DNA of 41,227 nt from an uncultured Bacillota bacterium (GTDB lineage: Bacteria; Bacillota_I; Bacilli_A; RFN20; CAG-826): contig CASEFL010000009.1 in NCBI GenBank assembly GCA_949287245.1, positions 1-41,227 of the forward strand, in the 5' to 3' direction. Positions 24,501-32,536 of the stretch are shown piece after piece; positions within the stretch are counted from its first letter, which is position 1; every line of letters starts with the position of its first letter. The notes below the pieces were generated by a model. It did not search any database. It had not been told where the DNA came from and saw nothing but the letters and a program-made list of their open reading frames with translations. Position numbers and translations under genes: made by a program.

Positions 24501-26885
24501 ATGAAAAAAAGTTCGTTCGTCTTAACCATTCTAGCGACGATCTTTGCGGTACTTGGTATCGTCCTTTTAGGATTAACACCAACGATTGCAGGGGCGAATA
24601 GCTGGATGACTGCAGCTTCTTTTGGTGAAGTTGCCACATCGTACGCGGATATTTTCTTTGGACCTGCTGGTTCTTATCTTGCCGCGTGGAATCTTGTAAC
24701 TAGTGGAAACATTTATGCAATTGTCGCTTTTGCGGTTGCTTGTGTTTTTGTGGTTACTTGGTTAATTCACTTGATTCTTGTTTTTGCTCGTCGCCGCTAT
24801 CGTTCTTTATTTCCTAACATCATGTGGTTAATCGGTGGCTTTGTCCTTACCGGTTTTGTTTGTGGAGCAATTGTTCCTGATTTCTTACCTTTAAATGCAG
24901 ATGCGCTTGCAACATCCACCTCCCATAACATTATTAATGTTTGGAATTATTTATTTGTAGGCGAGAGTTCCTATATTAAGGTTGCTGGTGATAATGCCGT
25001 CTTAAATTGGGTTTATGCCATTCTTATGCTTTTGCCTTACGCCCTTTTTACGGTTGGTTGGATTTTAGGACTTATTGGCTGTTTTGTAGCGATGGGGGAC
25101 TGTGTTGCCCATCCTGGTGTAAAGAAACAAAAAGAAAACGCTGCTCGTGCAAAGGCTTTAAAAGATGCTCGTTTGCCTGTTGATGATAACGACGCTTTAA
25201 AAGCAGCTTTATATGATGAATTAGATCCATCTGCAAAACCTGTAGTTGCGACTCCAGCCGCTGTTACTACAGATAAGAGTGGAGATACTCCTATTATCGT
25301 TCAACATATTTACTACAATGGTCAACCAGCACAAACCATTACCTCAACGCCAGAACCTAAGAAAGAAGAAGAGGAGAAAAAGGTTGAACCAACTCCTGCT
25401 ATTGAAGCAACAAAGGAACCTCAAAAAGAGATTCATATTCATATTTATAACCCTGGTCCCGAACCGAAGAAGGAAGAAGAGGAGAAAAAGGTTGAACCAA
25501 CTCCCGTTCCTGAAGTTAAACCTGCTCCAGCTCCTGTTATCGAAGAGGAGAATCGTCCATTAACGGCAAGAGAATTGCGTTCCATCATCAAAGAAGCGCT
25601 TGATGATCATGATCATCCTGATAATGACAAACCTTTAACTGATGAAGAAGCCCGCAATTTGGTTCGTGAAGAGTTAAATGATTACTACGCAAAAACTCTT
25701 CCTGTTGTAGAAGAAGAGGATGATGTTGACCTTCTTCCAGAAGAAGATCTTTACGAAACCGTTCGTCAAATTATCCACGAGGAATTAGAAGATGTTCTTT
25801 CTGCTCATAAAGAGGAGCCAAAAGAAGAACATGCTGTTGAAGAGAAGAAGGAAGAAACTCCTGCTTCTTCTGAAACTTTAACCAAAGATGAAATCAAGGC
25901 GATTCTTGAAGAAGAACTTACCTCTTTAAAAGAAGAGATGGCTCAAAAAGAAGCCGAAAAGAAAGCGGAAGAAGAAGCAAAGGCCAAAGCCGAAGAAGAA
26001 GCCAAAGCAAAGGCTGAAGAAGAAGCAAAGGCCAAAGCTGAAGAAGAAGCAAAAGCAAAGGCTGAAGAAGAAGAGAAGGCTCGTTTAGAGGCTGAAACAA
26101 AGGCGAAAGAAGAAGCAGAACGTCGCGCGCATGAGGCGGAAGAAGCGGCACGTATTCGTGAAAAAAATCTTAATATCCAAAAGGAAGTAGATGATGCACA
26201 AAATGCAGCAATTGCTTCCATTCGCGATTCCATGTTAAAAGCCGAAGATATTCGCGCGATTATTGCGGAGGAATTAGCAAAACTTCCCAAGCCAGAGCCG
26301 GTTGTTGTTGAAAAAGAAGTAGAAGTTCCTGCTCCTGCTCCCGAACCAGTCGTTGAGGAAAAAGTAGAACCTGTTGTTGAAGAAACAAAGCCTGCTACCG
26401 AAGAAGTAAAAGAAGCGAAACCCAAAATTATTCGTATCCCTTTCCCAACAAGACTTCTTGATGCCGACGATGAAATGAAGGCAAATTATAATGAACTTAA
26501 GGCTGAATGTTTAAGTTATGGTCTAAAGAGTCGTCTTTCGAACTCTGGAGATACCTTCCGTCTTCATACGAAGACTTATGTCAAGATTACTGTTGCCGGG
26601 AAATCTTTGAAACTTTATCTTGCTCTTGATCCAAAGGATTACGAAAATTCGACAATTCCAGTGAAAGATGCTGGCGGGAAAAATATTTATCGCGAAATTC
26701 CTGTTGTCTTTAAAGTGAAGAGTGCTCTTTCCATGAAGCGCGCGAAGCAGCTTATTGCCGATGCTTGTGAGCATGATGATCTTGAACAAGGAAAGATTAT
26801 TGAAAAAGATTACGTCCATGAACTTATTGATTATCGCCCCCAAAATGCCTCTGGAGCAGAGGATGATGAGGACGATGAGGAATAA
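24501..26885 (+). CDS. Large membrane protein with Pro/Glu linkers and Ala-Glu-Lys coiled coil
   Basis: 794 residues in four parts. (1) Four membrane helices within residues 1-205. (2) A Pro/Glu/Lys-rich linker with two copies of EPKKEEEEKKVEPTP, each after a short histidine- or tyrosine-containing strand (QHIYYNG, HIHIYNPG). (3) Short helical blocks of the form ELRSIIKEALDDH / ARNLVREELNDYY / DEIKAILEEELTSL, then a coiled coil with four 8-residue AEEEAKAK repeats. (4) A compact basic C-terminal domain of about 150 residues (from IRIPFPTRLLDADDEMKANY to the end), a type seen in other uncharacterised proteins of gut Bacillota. It may link the membrane to a cytosolic structure such as the nucleoid or division machinery; that is inference. 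It is monocistronic between two terminators. Confidence 0.75.
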   Translation: MKKSSFVLTILATIFAVLGIVLLGLTPTIAGANSWMTAASFGEVATSYADIFFGPAGSYLAAWNLVTSGNIYAIVAFAVACVFVVTWLIHLILVFARRRYRSLFPNIMWLIGGFVLTGFVCGAIVPDFLPLNADALATSTSHNIINVWNYLFVGESSYIKVAGDNAVLNWVYAILMLLPYALFTVGWILGLIGCFVAMGDCVAHPGVKKQKENAARAKALKDARLPVDDNDALKAALYDELDPSAKPVVATPAAVTTDKSGDTPIIVQHIYYNGQPAQTITSTPEPKKEEEEKKVEPTPAIEATKEPQKEIHIHIYNPGPEPKKEEEEKKVEPTPVPEVKPAPAPVIEEENRPLTARELRSIIKEALDDHDHPDNDKPLTDEEARNLVREELNDYYAKTLPVVEEEDDVDLLPEEDLYETVRQIIHEELEDVLSAHKEEPKEEHAVEEKKEETPASSETLTKDEIKAILEEELTSLKEEMAQKEAEKKAEEEAKAKAEEEAKAKAEEEAKAKAEEEAKAKAEEEEKARLEAETKAKEEAERRAHEAEEAARIREKNLNIQKEVDDAQNAAIASIRDSMLKAEDIRAIIAEELAKLPKPEPVVVEKEVEVPAPAPEPVVEEKVEPVVEETKPATEEVKEAKPKIIRIPFPTRLLDADDEMKANYNELKAECLSYGLKSRLSNSGDTFRLHTKTYVKITVAGKSLKLYLALDPKDYENSTIPVKDAGGKNIYREIPVVFKVKSALSMKRAKQLIADACEHDDLEQGKIIEKDYVHELIDYRPQNASGAEDDEDDEE
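25965..26078 (+). repeat. 24-bp tandem repeat (AEEEAKAK units)
   Basis: Four full copies of a 24-base unit start at 25965, 25989, 26013 and 26037, with a partial fifth to 26078. The copies differ only at synonymous third positions. They code for a charged coiled coil. Confidence 0.9.
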
Positions 26886-26932: not shown

Positions 26933-27475
26933 TTAATGAAGTTTTGTTAAACGATCTTGATATTTTTGATAAATCTCATCAGCAATTTCTTCAATACTGC
27001 GTTTTGTTGTTGAAATGATAAAATCTGTTTTTCCTACGCGACCAATAGAAAACTCTTGATCATCAAAAGCAAGTCTTTTTTGAATTTGCTCTTCCGTATC
27101 TCCACGCATGCGCATTCGTTCTTCTCGTTCCTCCCTTTTTGCTTCTAAGAAAAAGGTAACAATATGGGAATTTCTTAAGGCTAAAAAACTTCGTAATCCA
27201 TTAGGATCGACCACAACCAAAGTATTTTCGGCAATCTGATTTTTCGCGCATCCATAATAATTTCCACCATAAAAGGTATGTTCAACAAAGAAACAAGAGG
27301 CAAGTAAGGAAAGAAATTCCTCTTGTGAGACAAAATAGTAATCAACCCCGTTCTTTTCCCCTTTTCTTGGAGCTCTTGTGGTATGCGTAATGGCTTTATG
27401 AATGCCGTATTTATAAGAAAGATATTTTGCAACTTGAGTTTTTCCACTTGCAGAAGCGCCAATAAGAAGAATCAT
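26933..27475 (-). CDS. Guanylate kinase-like protein
   Basis: A 180-residue P-loop kinase of the guanylate kinase type, which converts GMP to GDP. It has the Walker A motif GASASGKT at the N-terminus and the GMP-binding stretch THTTRAPRKGEKNGVDYYFVS. It is somewhat shorter than typical Gmk (about 200 residues) and its P-loop departs from the usual SGPSGVGK. It could therefore be a paralogue or related nucleotide kinase rather than the only Gmk. On the minus strand TATCCT is followed by six bases and ATG, consistent with a leaderless start, with no ribosome site. Confidence 0.75.
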   Translation of the reverse strand: MILLIGASASGKTQVAKYLSYKYGIHKAITHTTRAPRKGEKNGVDYYFVSQEEFLSLLASCFFVEHTFYGGNYYGCAKNQIAENTLVVVDPNGLRSFLALRNSHIVTFFLEAKREEREERMRMRGDTEEQIQKRLAFDDQEFSIGRVGKTDFIISTTKRSIEEIADEIYQKYQDRLTKLH

Positions 27476-27564
27476 ATTTTAAGGATACCGCGCTTTTCTT
27501 TCTGCACCTACAAAATATTGAATTTTTTCAAAAGAAAAGGGCCATTATTTTTTATTAGCCCCTA

Positions 27565-27570
27565 TATAAT
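27565..27570 (+). promoter_or_regulatory. -10 box of the Tad-like operon
   Basis: TATAAT. The predicted +1 near 27577 leaves a 14-base leader containing AAGGAGG before ATG 27591. Confidence 0.6.
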
Positions 27571-27590: not shown

Positions 27591-27962
27591 ATGAGCGAAT
27601 CGATTCCCTTCTTTTTGAAGGCTGATTCCCGCGGTTGCTCGCTCCTGGTTGGAAGCATTTTCCGTCAGGCCCTTGTCGAGATTGGATATAGTCCGGATCG
27701 CCATGTATACGATCTCGACAGGGAGTATGTGCACCGCTGTAAGGAAAGCGCTGCTGGAGCGTTTTTAGAAAAAGTGATTGGGTTTTATGATTCATTACCC
27801 ATAGAGGAACGGAAGATTTTTCTTTGTGATTGTCTAGAAAGAGGAAGGCATTATTTTTGGTGGTGGTATGACTGTTTTGACCGTCACTCATATAATCGCG
27901 CAACAAAAAATGTACTCAATAAAGTTTATGGGAACTTTATGAGTGCATCTTTTGCTTCTTAA
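27591..27962 (+). CDS. Unknown 123-aa protein, first gene of the Tad-like operon
   Basis: I do not recognise this soluble protein. It is rich in aromatic residues near the end (RHYFWWWYDCFDRHSYNRA) and has five cysteines. The first 40 codons are G+C-rich: bases 27601-27720 hold 62 G or C out of 120 by hand count, against clearly AT-rich neighbours. They also hold a hairpin CCTTC-TTTTT-GAAGG (27607-27621) and a 9-base inverted repeat TGTCGAGAT/ATCTCGACA (27674-27682, 27712-27720). It has a strong AAGGAGG site. The next gene starts 18 bases after the stop, and no terminator intervenes, so it should be co-transcribed with the secretion genes. Confidence 0.65.
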   Translation: MSESIPFFLKADSRGCSLLVGSIFRQALVEIGYSPDRHVYDLDREYVHRCKESAAGAFLEKVIGFYDSLPIEERKIFLCDCLERGRHYFWWWYDCFDRHSYNRATKNVLNKVYGNFMSASFAS

Positions 27963-27979
27963 TTTCAGGAACGATTATC

Positions 27980-29038
27980 TTGCCAATAGGTAAAAAACTT
28001 GCCTCTCTTTTTAGTTTGTCATTTTTTCTTCTTTCCCCGTCTTCTTCATCTGCTCGTTCTCTTTTTGACAATGTGTGGGTTGATTTAAATTTCCCTGCGT
28101 GGAATGGGGGAAATTACATATATAGTTTTGAGATTGAAGCTCCTATTGATCTTGCTTCTTTTAGTTATGGTCTTTATGTTTCTAATCCTATGTATCCCTC
28201 TTCAACATACGGAACAAGTGGAAAGTTATTAATTGATCGTTTTGACTTAAATGCCGTTATTAAAAAAGGGGATACCTATATTTGTAGCGGGATGATTCTA
28301 GCAAGTAAGTTATCCAAATCTTATAACGATGCAAAACTTTACTTTAAAACAAAATACGATGGTGGGAGCTATAACTGGTATATTCCCTTCAGTCTTGATT
28401 ACTCTCCGCCAACAACCTTTCGTTTTGAGCCAGAAAAGGAATCCTCCTATGTTGCCTCTGAAGCCCGGGGGATTGGTATTTCTCATGATGGATCCGTATA
28501 TGAAGGACCTTATCGATTTGAAAGTTTATATTGCAAGGAAAACTATGTGAATCCTTCCTTTCATAAAATTCCTTTAAGAGAAATGCGCTTTCGTGAAGTT
28601 GCTTACTCTATTGAGTTAAATCCCTTTGAACCAAAAGAAATATCCCTACGAATCCTTAATTATTTTGATGATTTTCCACTTTTTACCCCAGAGATAATTG
28701 AAGGAAGAAAATGTATTGAAATCCCGTTAAAAGCGATTCCTTCGGGTCTTGGAGTCTATACAACTTTGCAAACGGTTGATGAGTTTGTAATCAGCGCGGA
28801 TGGTCGCACAATGCGGCATTGGAAAGATGCTCAAAAAGGGGACACTTATATTCATGACATTATTCTTCCCCCAGTAAAAGGAGGGGAAAGCAAAACTTAT
28901 GAATTTGAAATTTATGCGTCTGGATTTGGAGAAGTGGATGCTTGGTCAATGATTTATCCCTTTACGATATCCATTAACGCAAATTGGTTTGGGAGTTGCC
29001 AAAACGCCACGTGGTGTGTTGAGGAAATTTACTTATGA
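27980..29038 (+). CDS. Secreted or surface protein of the Tad-like operon
   Basis: 352 residues beginning at TTG after an AGGA site. The N-terminus is a clear signal peptide: basic GKKLAS, a hydrophobic core LFSLSFFLLSPS, then a small-residue region (SSSSARS). The mature part is rich in aromatic and beta-prone stretches (NGGNYIYSFEIEAPIDLASFSYGLYV), has few cysteines except near the end (GSCQNATWCVEEIYL), and has no membrane anchor or sortase motif. It overlaps the next gene by four bases (ATGA). I do not know the family. Its place in the operon suggests an adhesin, a tip protein or a secreted cargo of the machine; that is inference. Confidence 0.7.
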   Translation: MPIGKKLASLFSLSFFLLSPSSSSARSLFDNVWVDLNFPAWNGGNYIYSFEIEAPIDLASFSYGLYVSNPMYPSSTYGTSGKLLIDRFDLNAVIKKGDTYICSGMILASKLSKSYNDAKLYFKTKYDGGSYNWYIPFSLDYSPPTTFRFEPEKESSYVASEARGIGISHDGSVYEGPYRFESLYCKENYVNPSFHKIPLREMRFREVAYSIELNPFEPKEISLRILNYFDDFPLFTPEIIEGRKCIEIPLKAIPSGLGVYTTLQTVDEFVISADGRTMRHWKDAQKGDTYIHDIILPPVKGGESKTYEFEIYASGFGEVDAWSMIYPFTISINANWFGSCQNATWCVEEIYL

Positions 29039-29412
29039 TTCAACTTTTTATCAGTGCATTACTTGTTGCTTTTTCCCTACAGCTTTTCTCTGCTACCCGT
29101 GCACATGGAGTTATTGCTCGTACATGGTCCGGCTTATCAAAGGAAATGCTTTATGGCGCAATTGTCACTCCTTTTGATGAATCGATGCCTTATTGGGATG
29201 TGGAATATGCATATGAAATAGTCCGTCAATATTTTTCCTCCTCTTTTGATTCGTACAAGGTTCATTACGTTTTTGATGTTTTAGGAGAAGGAGGAATGAG
29301 TGCTTCTACACCCATGACCTTAGTTGTTGTTCTTAAAGCAAATTTAGGAATGGTTGATTTAGATAAGGATTACCGGGTTTTTGTTATCCAGGAAGGAGAA
29401 AATTATGAGTGA
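29035..29412 (+). CDS. Pilin-like membrane-anchored protein
   Basis: 125 residues. A single hydrophobic N-terminal helix (IQLFISALLVAFSLQLFSATRA) is followed by a soluble domain of about 95 residues ending in an acidic tail. The layout matches minor pseudopilins of Tad or type II/IV systems, which sit in the membrane by an N-terminal helix. A classical prepilin peptidase site (G before F/MxxxE) is not obvious. It overlaps the secreted-protein gene by four bases and TadA by eight, so expression is tightly coupled. Confidence 0.6.
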   Translation: MIQLFISALLVAFSLQLFSATRAHGVIARTWSGLSKEMLYGAIVTPFDESMPYWDVEYAYEIVRQYFSSSFDSYKVHYVFDVLGEGGMSASTPMTLVVVLKANLGMVDLDKDYRVFVIQEGENYE

Positions 29413-30352
29413 GCTTGAAGCAAGTAACTATATAGAAAAAACAAAAATTCATTCTTTAGTTGAAGATCCTAACATCAGTGATGTGAGTTATAACGGAGAA
29501 GCGCTTTATTATCTTCATTCTTTTAAGGGACGAAGAAAAAGTGATATCGCCTTTTCTCCCAAGGAAGCGTTTGAGTTTCTTTTACAAATTTCAAATTTAA
29601 CAGAACATCCTTTTAGTTATAGCAACCCTATTCTTGATGTTTCTTTTGGGAGATACCGTTTAAACGGCATTCACCCTTCATTAGGTAGAAAAGGTGGCGA
29701 ACGATGTCCAACATTTTCTTTACGTCTTGCAAGTGAAAAAAGCAAAATCGAAGGAGATATTCGATTTTTCCCTCCACACACAGAAGAAATCCTTACGGAC
29801 TGGATGGAAAAAGGGGAGTCTATTGTTATTGGGGGAATATCCTCATCAGGAAAAACAGAACTCCAAAAATATCTTCTAAAAAAACTTCCTAATCAAAGAA
29901 AATGTATTGTCATTGATAATATTGACGAACTGGGTTTGCTTAAAAATGTGAATGCAGACATTTCAACTTGGCTAGTAACTAGTAAAGCCTCCTATAGCGA
30001 TTTGATTCGTAATGCTTTGCGGAATGATCCTGACTACATCATTTTAGCAGAAGCTAGAGGAGGGGAAATGTTAGATGCTTTAACCTCAGCCTTATCGGGG
30101 CACCCTATAATTTTGACGATTCACGCAGACAAGATTGAAGATTTACCAGAACGTATGGTTCGTTTAGCAATGCAAGGGAAAGAAAGGCTTTTAGAAGAGG
30201 AGTTAAGAAAAATCATAAACTCCTGTCTCACTCATTATGTATTACTTGGAAGAAGTTTTGATGAAAATGGTGGGATTTATCGTTCCATAAAAGCTTTAGG
30301 AGAAACAAACGAACAAGGGGAAATGCAAATACTTTATAAGGAGAATCTATGA
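29405..30352 (+). CDS. tadA: TadA/GspE-type secretion ATPase
   Basis: A 315-residue hexameric ATPase that powers pilus assembly or secretion. It has Walker A GGISSSGKTE (K150), an Asp box (CIVIDNIDEL), an arginine-bearing segment SDLIRNALRNDPD, a Walker B-type AEARGGEMLD and a His box ILTIHADK. It is shorter than classical TadA/CpaF (about 400 or more) because the N-terminal part is reduced to about 130 residues. The start at 29405 follows a good GGAAGGAG site. It is followed by tadB with a four-base overlap, the classical tadA-tadB-tadC order. Confidence 0.92.
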   Translation: MSELEASNYIEKTKIHSLVEDPNISDVSYNGEALYYLHSFKGRRKSDIAFSPKEAFEFLLQISNLTEHPFSYSNPILDVSFGRYRLNGIHPSLGRKGGERCPTFSLRLASEKSKIEGDIRFFPPHTEEILTDWMEKGESIVIGGISSSGKTELQKYLLKKLPNQRKCIVIDNIDELGLLKNVNADISTWLVTSKASYSDLIRNALRNDPDYIILAEARGGEMLDALTSALSGHPIILTIHADKIEDLPERMVRLAMQGKERLLEEELRKIINSCLTHYVLLGRSFDENGGIYRSIKALGETNEQGEMQILYKENL

Positions 30353-31086
30353 TTAATCGAATTAGTATTTCTTGTGTTGGATTTTTTATCGCTGGTTTTC
30401 TTGGCTATTTCATTAGCAATCAGTTATGGGTTGGTGTTCTTTCGGGTTTGTTAGTTTTTCTTGCTCTTTTCTTTATCAGTATCCCTTATTTAATGGCAAG
30501 AAAAGAAAAAGGGGAACGGAGGAATGAAGCATATCGTTTTGCGAATTCTTTCATCATCTCTTTATCGGTTAATGGATCACTAGAAGAAAGTTTTAAAAGT
30601 GCATCTTTGTTTCTTTCTCCAAGTTACCGTGAAATCATTTTGCATTTAGAAAATCTTGAAATCATAGAAAAGATTAAATATTTGCAGCAATATTTTCAAG
30701 AATCGTTTTATGACATGTTTGTTTCTATGGTCACAATTTGGCGCGATCAAGGAGGAGATGTTTTGCATTTAATGGAGCCTTTGCTTCGTGAAATGGGAGA
30801 AATTGAGGAAAGCGAACGAATGGCAGATAAAAGCCGTAAGCGTTCGTTAATGCAGTTTCTTATCTTGTGGCTTATGAGTGCTTTTATTCTTCTTGCCGTA
30901 CGCTTTGGCCTTGATGCCTTTTATCAAGATTTAAGTTCCTCTATCTCTTTCCAAGTCGTTAGCTGTCTTTACTTTGTGGTCGTAAGTTTCGCCTTTTCTT
31001 ATTTTGGAATTCTGGTAGGAACGAAACCAAAAGGAGGTTTATATGTTAAAAAAGAAAGAAAATCTAAATTCCTTAAAAAGAAATAA
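30349..31086 (+). CDS. tadB: TadB-like inner-membrane platform protein
   Basis: 245 residues. Two N-terminal membrane helices (about residues 5-48) are followed by a cytosolic helical domain of the T2SF/GspF type (RFANSFIISLSVNGSLEESFKSAS ... MVTIWRDQGGDVLHLMEPLL) and two C-terminal helices (about residues 168-225). This is the expected TadB layout. The start overlaps the tadA stop as ATGA. The protein should form the membrane platform with TadC, on which TadA acts. It overlaps tadC by 44 bases. Confidence 0.85.
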   Translation: MINRISISCVGFFIAGFLGYFISNQLWVGVLSGLLVFLALFFISIPYLMARKEKGERRNEAYRFANSFIISLSVNGSLEESFKSASLFLSPSYREIILHLENLEIIEKIKYLQQYFQESFYDMFVSMVTIWRDQGGDVLHLMEPLLREMGEIEESERMADKSRKRSLMQFLILWLMSAFILLAVRFGLDAFYQDLSSSISFQVVSCLYFVVVSFAFSYFGILVGTKPKGGLYVKKERKSKFLKKK

Positions 31087-31705
31087 AAACAAAGTATTGT
31101 TAATCGTTATTAATATTTGCCTTTTTGCTTTAGTTGTTGCACTTCAATTTCTTTTTGAAAATATATTTTTAACCATCGGATTATTGTTGCTTATAGGAAT
31201 TACGGATTATTTCCTTTGCAACTTTCCTAGGCAGAAAGAAGAGAAGAATAAAGAATACTTATCAAAAGCATTTGTTGAAGCATTCTCTTATTTCTCTATT
31301 TATATCGAGACAGGATTGCCTGTTTATAAGGCGTTACAAGCCACGATTCCCTTTGCTAAAAAAGAACTTCAGGAAAAGATAGTTACTTTGCTTAGGGAGA
31401 TTGATGAAGATAAATCCATTCAACCGTATATTCACTTTAGTAATGCATTTTCCTCTTTAGCAATTCGTCAAGTTATGCTCTCTATTTATAAGATTAATGA
31501 AGAAGGAGGAAGTGAAAATTATCTCCAGCAATTTCGAGCATTATTTGCTTCCTTTGCTTTTGAAAGTCGTAAAGAAAAACTTTTAGCCTTAGAAAATAAA
31601 ATGAATAGCACCGCTGTGTTTCCTTTAATTGCCTCTTCTTTAGTCATGGCTTTAATTGCTTTGGGAATTGTTGCCGTTTTAGGAGGAATGATGAATGGGC
31701 TCTAA
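31043..31705 (+). CDS. tadC: TadC-like inner-membrane platform protein
   Basis: 220 residues with the same fold plan as TadB: two membrane helices (about 20-55), a cytosolic T2SF domain (AFVEAFSYFSIYIETGLPVYKALQAT, YKINEEGGSENYLQQF) and a final helix ending VAVLGGMMNGL. The start at 31043 is chosen because a perfect AAGGAGG lies six bases upstream, although it overlaps the tadB end by 44 bases. Together with TadB it makes the paired platform typical of Tad systems, which differ from type II systems in splitting the platform into two genes. Confidence 0.85.
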   Translation: MLKKKENLNSLKRNKNKVLLIVINICLFALVVALQFLFENIFLTIGLLLLIGITDYFLCNFPRQKEEKNKEYLSKAFVEAFSYFSIYIETGLPVYKALQATIPFAKKELQEKIVTLLREIDEDKSIQPYIHFSNAFSSLAIRQVMLSIYKINEEGGSENYLQQFRALFASFAFESRKEKLLALENKMNSTAVFPLIASSLVMALIALGIVAVLGGMMNGL

Positions 31706-32036
31706 ACTTGCTTTTCTTCTTTCTTTGTTTTTTGTCATCGGAATTATGGGAATGGCGGGTGATTTAGCATCGATTCAAGTCATTCAAACAAGCCTTGATG
31801 CCGCTTCGATTACAGCGGCAAGAAGCATTGCAATTCATGGTGGTATAAACCAACAAATTATCGCTTCTATTGAAAAAGAATGCGGTGGTCATTTAATTTC
31901 TTTAGAAGAGGAACCAGTACAAGTAGGGGATATCTTTCATTTTATGATTACGAAAGAATATCAGCCCTTTGTACTTTCAAGTAGCCCATTAACTGTGAAA
32001 GTGGAACGCTCCACAGTTATTGGATATTTAGATTAA
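31695..32036 (+). CDS. TadE/TadG-like pseudopilin
   Basis: 113 residues. A hydrophobic N-terminal helix (KLAFLLSLFFVIGIMGMAGDLASIQVIQ) runs into the segment QTSLDAASITAARSIAIHGG. That pattern, a helix followed by a D-A-A-x-x-A-A-R-like stretch, is typical of TadE/TadG pseudopilins. The rest is a small beta-rich domain. It overlaps tadC by 11 bases and has AGGAGG upstream. It should be a minor pilin exported by this machine. Confidence 0.72.
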   Translation: MGSKLAFLLSLFFVIGIMGMAGDLASIQVIQTSLDAASITAARSIAIHGGINQQIIASIEKECGGHLISLEEEPVQVGDIFHFMITKEYQPFVLSSSPLTVKVERSTVIGYLD

Positions 32037-32052
32037 GAAAGGAGGTGAAAGG

Positions 32053-32229
32053 ATGTCAGAACTAAAAGGTCAGTTATTAGGAATGATTCTTGTTCTTGGG
32101 ATTTTTGGAATTATTGCCGGAACATTAATTCCTGCTTTCCAAAATACTGCTGAACGGCTAGAAAGCGAAATGGATGTTAATCTATCTTCACAAGTCTCTT
32201 CGCGTTTAATTCAAGTAAATATTCAATAA
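32053..32229 (+). CDS. Flp-like small pilin candidate
   Basis: A 58-residue protein that starts MSELKGQLLGMILVLGIFGIIAG and has one long hydrophobic helix, then a short polar tail of about 30 residues. Size, single helix near the N-terminus and position in the operon fit a Flp-type major pilin. The GQLLG segment before the helix could be a prepilin peptidase region, but no glutamate at the usual position five is seen. GGAGG lies nine bases before ATG. It is the last gene before the terminator. Confidence 0.65.
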   Translation: MSELKGQLLGMILVLGIFGIIAGTLIPAFQNTAERLESEMDVNLSSQVSSRLIQVNIQ

Positions 32230-32235
32230 TCGAAC

Positions 32236-32262
32236 GGGGGCCATCGCCCCCTTATTTTCTTT
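32236..32262 (+). terminator. Rho-independent terminator of the Tad-like operon
   Basis: GGGGGC-CATC-GCCCCC, a strong 6-bp stem, followed by TTATTTTCTTT. Confidence 0.88.
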
Positions 32263-32308: not shown

Positions 32309-32536
32309 ATGGTTTTAGATGATATTCGTACGGCATTAGCTAAAAAAAGTAAACGCGAAACAATTACTGAGGATGTTCTTTTAAAAGATCTTGGGCTTGA
32401 TTCTTTAGATGTGGTAGAGATGTGCCTAGATTTTGAAGAAAAATATGGTATTACTTTCGAAACGGCAGAATTAGGAACATTAAAAACCGTTGGGGATTTA
32501 ATGGATACCATTCAAAAGAAATTAATAAATAAATAA
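32309..32536 (+). CDS. acpP: Acyl carrier protein
   Basis: 75 residues, the normal length of ACP, which carries fatty acyl chains on a phosphopantetheine arm. The attachment serine is S32 in LGLDSLDVVEM, the canonical motif. Acidic helices II and III follow (LDFEEKYGITF, TVGDLMDTIQ). It is a single-gene unit and no fatty acid synthesis gene is adjacent. The ribosome site is weak (AAAGG, more than ten bases from ATG). Confidence 0.96.
   Translation: MVLDDIRTALAKKSKRETITEDVLLKDLGLDSLDVVEMCLDFEEKYGITFETAELGTLKTVGDLMDTIQKKLINK

Follow-up and report, generated by a model that had tools for sequence, protein, structure and literature searches.

In descriptions of type IV filaments, the processing of prepilins counts as a core step of ancestral origin. 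Among known systems, the closest relative of the locus reported here is the Tad or type IVc (Flp) pilus, represented by the CpaF system of Caulobacter and by the tad locus of Bulleidia extructa, which begins with tadV (PMC12786226). This pilus has in common with our locus a TadA-class ATPase, paired TadB and TadC proteins, a small pilin devoid of a globular domain and minor subunits of the TadE/F type. In the Tad pilin of Caulobacter, Glu5 bonds to neighbouring subunits (PMC11067988). All that the general class III rule requires is a hydrophilic leader with Gly or Ala as its last residue (PMC10191384). The locus of the MSH pilus likewise contains no prepilin peptidase gene, yet MSH genomes always hold the peptidase of another system to borrow (PMC6668835), whereas none is found here. 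Our literature search retrieved such systems with a borrowed peptidase (PMC6668835) as well as pilD mutants made in the laboratory (PMC8546353), and no natural peptidase-free system.

The locus described in this study shows features of the type IV filament superfamily, namely a T2SSE-class assembly ATPase, a T2SSF-type platform and a pilin with a long N-terminal helix, and, like Tad systems, it has TadB and TadC as distinct platform proteins. Judged by the class of its ATPase, its pair of platforms and its kind of subunits, the machine is Tad-derived, but it lacks TadV and the cleavage/Glu5 motif of Flp, both of which are defining for Tad systems. Compared to the Tad pilus, it is devoid of TadV throughout the genome and of TadZ at the locus, its TadA is devoid of the N-terminal domain, its Flp contains neither Glu5 nor a normal leader and it includes the extra genes g1 and g2.

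A compact operon of eight genes

The operon spans positions 27591-32229 of the window, by which we refer to the entire analysed stretch of 41,227 nucleotides, and belongs to a genome of 1.12 Mb that is 97% complete. In the list of open reading frames of the window, it consists of eight overlapping or closely spaced genes on the + strand in the order g1-g2-g3-tadA-tadB-tadC-tadE-flp:

27591..27962, + strand: g1, MG284/MPN403-family protein of 123 aa, probable sigma-region-4/ArpU-like regulator
27980..29038, + strand: g2, exported all-beta protein of 352 aa, TTG start, C-terminal G338-x-C340-x5-C346
29035..29412, + strand: g3, leaderless minor-pilin-like protein of 125 aa, assigned from its model and kept position
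29405..30352, + strand: tadA, TadA-like secretion ATPase of 315 aa, devoid of a CpaF-type N-terminal domain
30349..31086, + strand: tadB, TadB-like platform protein of 245 aa, assigned from profile homology to TadC
31043..31705, + strand: tadC, TadC-like platform protein of 220 aa, assigned from T2SSF matches of orthologues
31695..32036, + strand: TadE-like gene, minor-pilin-type protein of 113 aa with a helix from about residue 5
32053..32229, + strand: Flp-like gene, small pilin of 58 aa with the N-terminus MSELKGQLLGM
32236..32251, + strand: intrinsic terminator, 6 GC pairs with a T-rich tail behind them

The initial annotation had described a compact Tad-like set of eight genes ending in one terminator; all eight reading frames were found, as was the terminator following the Flp-like gene, which was graded strong, and the architecture of the machine in terms of gene set and order is well supported. 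Since the upstream neighbour, a guanylate-kinase-like gene at 26933-27475, runs in the opposite direction, a new transcription unit begins at g1. A TATAAT at 27565-27570 lies directly upstream of g1, where it follows an inverted repeat GGGC...GCCC (both within 27539-27570), and the two possibly constitute a regulated promoter; promoter-like sites in the scan were fewer than in shuffled sequences. On the other side, a gene for an acyl carrier protein (32309-32536) follows 80 bases downstream of the operon. Further upstream, at 24501-26885, the window encodes a membrane-anchored protein of 794 aa with long charged Lys/Glu-rich repeats, and a family of similar length sits upstream of the operon in 26 loci.

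For tadA, the ATG at 29405 is the best start and is backed by relatives, while a TTG at 29381 is disfavoured. The resulting protein matches T2SSE with an E-value of 1.8e-16 and is the only such ATPase over the cut-off in the whole genome. Its profile aligns to residues 148-440 of the 501 residues of CpaF, consistent with the short TadA noticed earlier, and the N-terminal domain is missing. The Walker A, Walker B and His-box motifs are conserved among relatives, and the protein can be assigned by sequence to the TadA/VirB11/FlaI class. With respect to the platform, 6 of 25 TadC orthologues match T2SSF (PF00482, best 1.6e-5), and TadB is homologous to TadC in a profile comparison (prob 96.2). 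Several other assignments were rejected: a SpoIIIA sporulation complex, as no SpoIIIAA model is found among the NCBIfam matches of the ATPase at E up to 1; a defence system, as the PADLOC matches of the ATPase are only marginal; and a full Tad system elsewhere in the genome, as a single T2SSE is over the cut-off.

Conservation of the operon across the order

TadA was detected in 45 of 61 genomes searched, and 40 loci were retrieved and read. All of the genus shares the same gene order, which other families of the order also have, though their sequences have diverged. Among 80 named public loci, 58 contain all eight genes in this order, most of the others being cut by contig ends or devoid only of g1, which is a fast-evolving gene; their titles refer to uncultured Bacilli from gut or rumen, including Candidatus Alloenteromonas and Fiminaster. 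A survey of the order places compact TadA in 145 of 192 genomes, a number obtained from 148 TadA matches by subtracting three genomes with only long GspE/PilB-type ATPases. The conservation of gene order is far beyond chance. Where dS is measurable, omega is mostly 0.03-0.3, which points to purifying selection, and since the order of genes is kept under such selection across a large uncultured order of Bacilli, the locus is not a decayed one. The initial annotation had allowed for an absence of the first two genes from the locus in all relatives, or for a full Tad system encoded elsewhere with a decayed copy at this place. Neither was found: g1 and g2 are both present in relatives, and there is no second Tad system in the genome. 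Compact TadA is missing from a small number of relatives with fairly complete genomes, G004 among them, and the machine is thus dispensable. It may be a main surface appendage of abundant uncultured bacteria of gut and rumen.

Absence of a prepilin peptidase

The missing prepilin peptidase, initially remarked upon for the locus alone, extends to the entire genome of the window, where Peptidase_A24 (PF01478) has no match at E up to 10, and to 36 congeners, where it has none either. Across the order, PF01478 is over the cut-off in 8 of 192 genomes, five of which also contain compact TadA, each along with a second TadA-like match, and the A24 enzyme is missing in about 140 of the 145 genomes carrying the compact machine. 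In the four genomes for which the places of both proteins are listed, the peptidase shares a contig with a GspE/PilB-type ATPase of 560-590 aa (G082 and G087, as well as G057 and G044, the latter two without compact TadA). No A24 peptidase is linked to this locus across the order. The enzyme was found in 25 of 25 sister-clade genomes with related Tad-like loci, where it adjoins PilC-type T4P genes in the two that were read. Its recovery in sister clades indicates that the search is sensitive and that, within the limits of draft genomes, the enzyme is truly absent, although PF01478 could miss a very divergent enzyme. We also considered a peptidase hidden beside the operon, which we rejected, the recurring flanks including guanylate kinase, acyl carrier protein and other unrelated-looking genes, among which no membrane protease was recognised.

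Pilin-type subunits with very short N-termini

In the g3, TadE-like and Flp-like proteins, the membrane helix starts 1-6 residues past the Met, and none of the three reading frames can be extended, each start being the first in its own frame. In g3, the helix begins directly at the start, leaving no leader. The g3 model, which is of high confidence (pLDDT 92.6), contains a helix at residues 2-33, further helices and a three-stranded sheet, and its predicted build is generally that of a pilin. A fold search with this model gave no significant match and ranked no pilin family high, and its top rows (phage gp25, pantothenate synthetase) were read as chance arrangements. The identities of the Flp-like and TadE-like proteins are based on position, helix and motifs, with Pfam support that is very weak or none; for the latter, 2 of 27 orthologues match TadF (PF16964, best 0.0011).

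Ahead of its helix, the N-terminus of the Flp-like protein reads MSE[ILFV]K[GA], with E3 and K5 being invariant in 80 of 80 distinct sequences, none of which contains a Glu at +5 or a G-x(4)-E-Y processing motif. A complete AGGAGG precedes the gene in 92% of the loci, compared to 3-34% for the other genes, and the strongest ribosome site is thus located where it would be expected of a major subunit. Because the class III rule asks for so little, the extra conservation of MSE[ILFV]K[GA] suggests that these residues remain in the mature protein; alternatively, they could form the recognition site of some other protease. The claim that neither pilin carries a canonical cleavage site stands with regard to the missing Glu at +5, but is weakened by K5-[GA]6, which could be a very short class III leader.

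In other Bacilli, Tad-like pilins at four loci (L250, L251, L255 and L256) begin with MK directly before a sequence resembling mature Flp or TadE, such as AVISEYGL or SAIELY, and these pilins belong to genomes possessing an A24 peptidase. Since sister Bacilli with MK-start pilins keep the enzyme beside another pilus, leaderless pilins may have preceded the loss of the peptidase and made it dispensable.

Probable operation without prepilin processing

On balance, we lean towards a functional, vertically kept and Tad-derived filament machine that works without prepilin processing and has g2 as a tip or adhesive subunit or as a released partner. Its leaderless mode of operation appears likely. 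Whether this holds for the clade as a whole appears to us an even call: in such a clade-wide machine without any pilin processing, leaderless pilins would have come first and peptidase loss second, and the families f3 and f4 would have been reduced further, in which case platform, minor pilins and g2 would serve an independent function.

A less probable explanation, which we consider unlikely but still worth weighing, is an ordinary Tad pilus of normal adhesive function, with pilins processed by a peptidase that either has diverged beyond the reach of PF01478 or belongs to another class, and with Flp cut at KG/Q. Such processing would be compatible with K5-[GA]6 and the ensuing hydrophobic helix, which fit the general class III rule (PMC10191384), and the strong conservation of MSExK could reflect a recognition motif. 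It is difficult to reconcile with the missing A24 match at E up to 10 in a search that works in relatives of the order and class, with a Flp-like protein without Glu5 and a g3 without any leader, and with flanks in which no recurrent membrane-protease-like gene was recognised. If the favoured reading of unprocessed pilins is correct, leader cleavage would not be mechanistically needed for pulling pilins from the membrane, and the machine would provide a small natural parts list for assembly studies. In mostly wall-less bacteria without a peptidase, the need for trimming becomes directly testable.

The exported protein g2 and the function of the machine

All homologues of g2 carry an export signal, and the model of the protein is all-beta (pLDDT 88.2). 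In a fold search that covered mainly residues 27-143 and barely the C-terminal part, this region matches Ig/FnIII-like sandwiches, including a domain of GbpA (Z 9.3, 2.6 A over 94 residues) and RbmA (Z 8.7). Beta-sandwich matches of this kind, here obtained with a predicted structure, are common and would not indicate a function. A G-x-C-x5-C-V motif at the C-terminus recurs across the order, and its two cysteines are either both present or both absent within the genus, which suggests that g2 carries a disulfide outside the cell. We infer that g2 is a tip or adhesive subunit.

We further infer filament formation, the absence of processing, the place and role of g2 and regulation by g1, which combine into the following mechanism. 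The machine would consist of one ATPase (TadA), a platform of two parts (TadB/TadC), three pilin-type proteins with very short N-termini and the regulator-like g1 at the head of the operon. As the pilins would be translated essentially leaderless, with 1-6 residues before the membrane helix, an A24 enzyme would be unneeded. TadA and TadB/TadC would lift Flp-like subunits from the membrane into a short filament that would be initiated by g3 and the TadE-like protein and would, in most of these species, pass an envelope without peptidoglycan. The same two proteins would bear the exported, disulfide-bearing g2 as adhesive tip or released partner. A comparable arrangement is found in the TCP type IVb pilus, where the tip carries a minor pilin to which an exported soluble protein of the pilus operon binds (TcpB-TcpF, PMC9565799). 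This likeness concerns how the machine may work rather than membership, as no sequence relation was found and binding between g2 and g3 is hypothetical.

As to the envelope, none of the 11 genomes tested in the window's family contains a PBP transpeptidase, making its cell probably wall-less. Peptidoglycan-deficient families are reported in order RFN20 (PMC10868615), to which the window would belong judging by the names of its relatives. The enzyme PBP transpeptidase is also missing in one f2 and one f3 genome and present in f8, f6, f4 and most f3 members, and the machine is found in both walled and wall-less cells. The proposal of a compact Tad-like machine in a single-membrane cell is supported.

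In two other families of this order, f3 and f4, where none of nine genomes searched contains a T2SSE over the cut-off, we found reduced operons of g1, g2-like, g3-like, multi-TM platform and TadE-like genes without Flp (L204 2970-5819, L205 2491-5299, L206, L215-L217, L219 and L220). In profile comparisons, their members relate to the families of the window with prob values of 94 for g2, 92 for g3, 73 for the platform versus TadB and 97 for TadE. That a platform should be retained in the absence of both motor and major pilin is unexpected, and it suggests g2, g3, TadE and platform as the functional core. The composition of these operons implies that part of the function may be independent of a filament, and it raises the question of the job of a pilus platform without a motor. 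A different assembly is found at L249 (4218-12863), where a Tad-like TadE-TadA-TadB-TadC set without Flp is located beside TrbL-, PrgI- and TraG-type conjugation genes.

With regard to function, we favour a filament for adhesion or surface contact that bears g2 at its tip. The main functional rival is a secretion-type pseudopilus, in which Flp would form no more than a short stub within the membrane and, in the manner of a T2SS piston, push out Sec-exported g2 or another cargo, with no filament at the surface. We regard this as rather improbable. A piston would be in keeping with the export of g2 and its encoding beside g3, with the retention of g2, g3, platform and TadE without Flp and ATPase in f3 and f4, and with a single-membrane cell that has no secretin to cross; in such a mostly wall-less cell, however, Sec export alone frees g2, which leaves a piston with little to do, and the strong ribosome site of Flp suggests an abundant subunit.

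A Com-like pseudopilus for DNA uptake would suit an order in which ComEC is common and in which most genomes with the machine have no other pilus system. We rejected this very unlikely role, as ComEC does not track the machine, being as frequent with it (98 of 145) as without it (30 of 47), and was not detected in the window's own genome. Least credible of all is the decay of a former Tad or conjugative system into a remnant, which a reduced gene set, the related TadA-B-C set beside TrbL/PrgI/TraG-type genes and the existence of ATPase-less versions might suggest, but against which selection argues strongly, given intact catalytic motifs, low omega and the same eight genes across many genera.

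A regulator-like protein at the head of the operon

The product of g1, which the initial annotation had listed as an unknown protein, can be reassigned to the MG284/MPN403 family of transcription-regulator-like proteins. Among its 51 orthologues, NF045770 is matched by 39 (best 1.5e-20) and the phage regulator ArpU by 10, with individual sequences resembling sigma factors, while g1 of the window on its own reaches an E-value of 0.0046 and 16.9 bits, below the cut-off of 37.3. The protein is thus probably a diverged member of the family, and its likeliest role is that of a sigma-region-4-like regulator. In relatives, g1 is the first gene of the cluster. The family is also present in Mycoplasma-type genomes, but with hhalign prob values under 8, the genes following g1 there are not detectably related to g2, to g3 or to the pilins. 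At three such loci with TGA encoding Trp (L209, L223 and L225), g1 is succeeded by a protein of ~375 aa, a one-TM protein of ~140-170 aa and an acyl-carrier-like gene. In other Bacilli, members of the family also stand alone, for example beside a ptsI-like gene.
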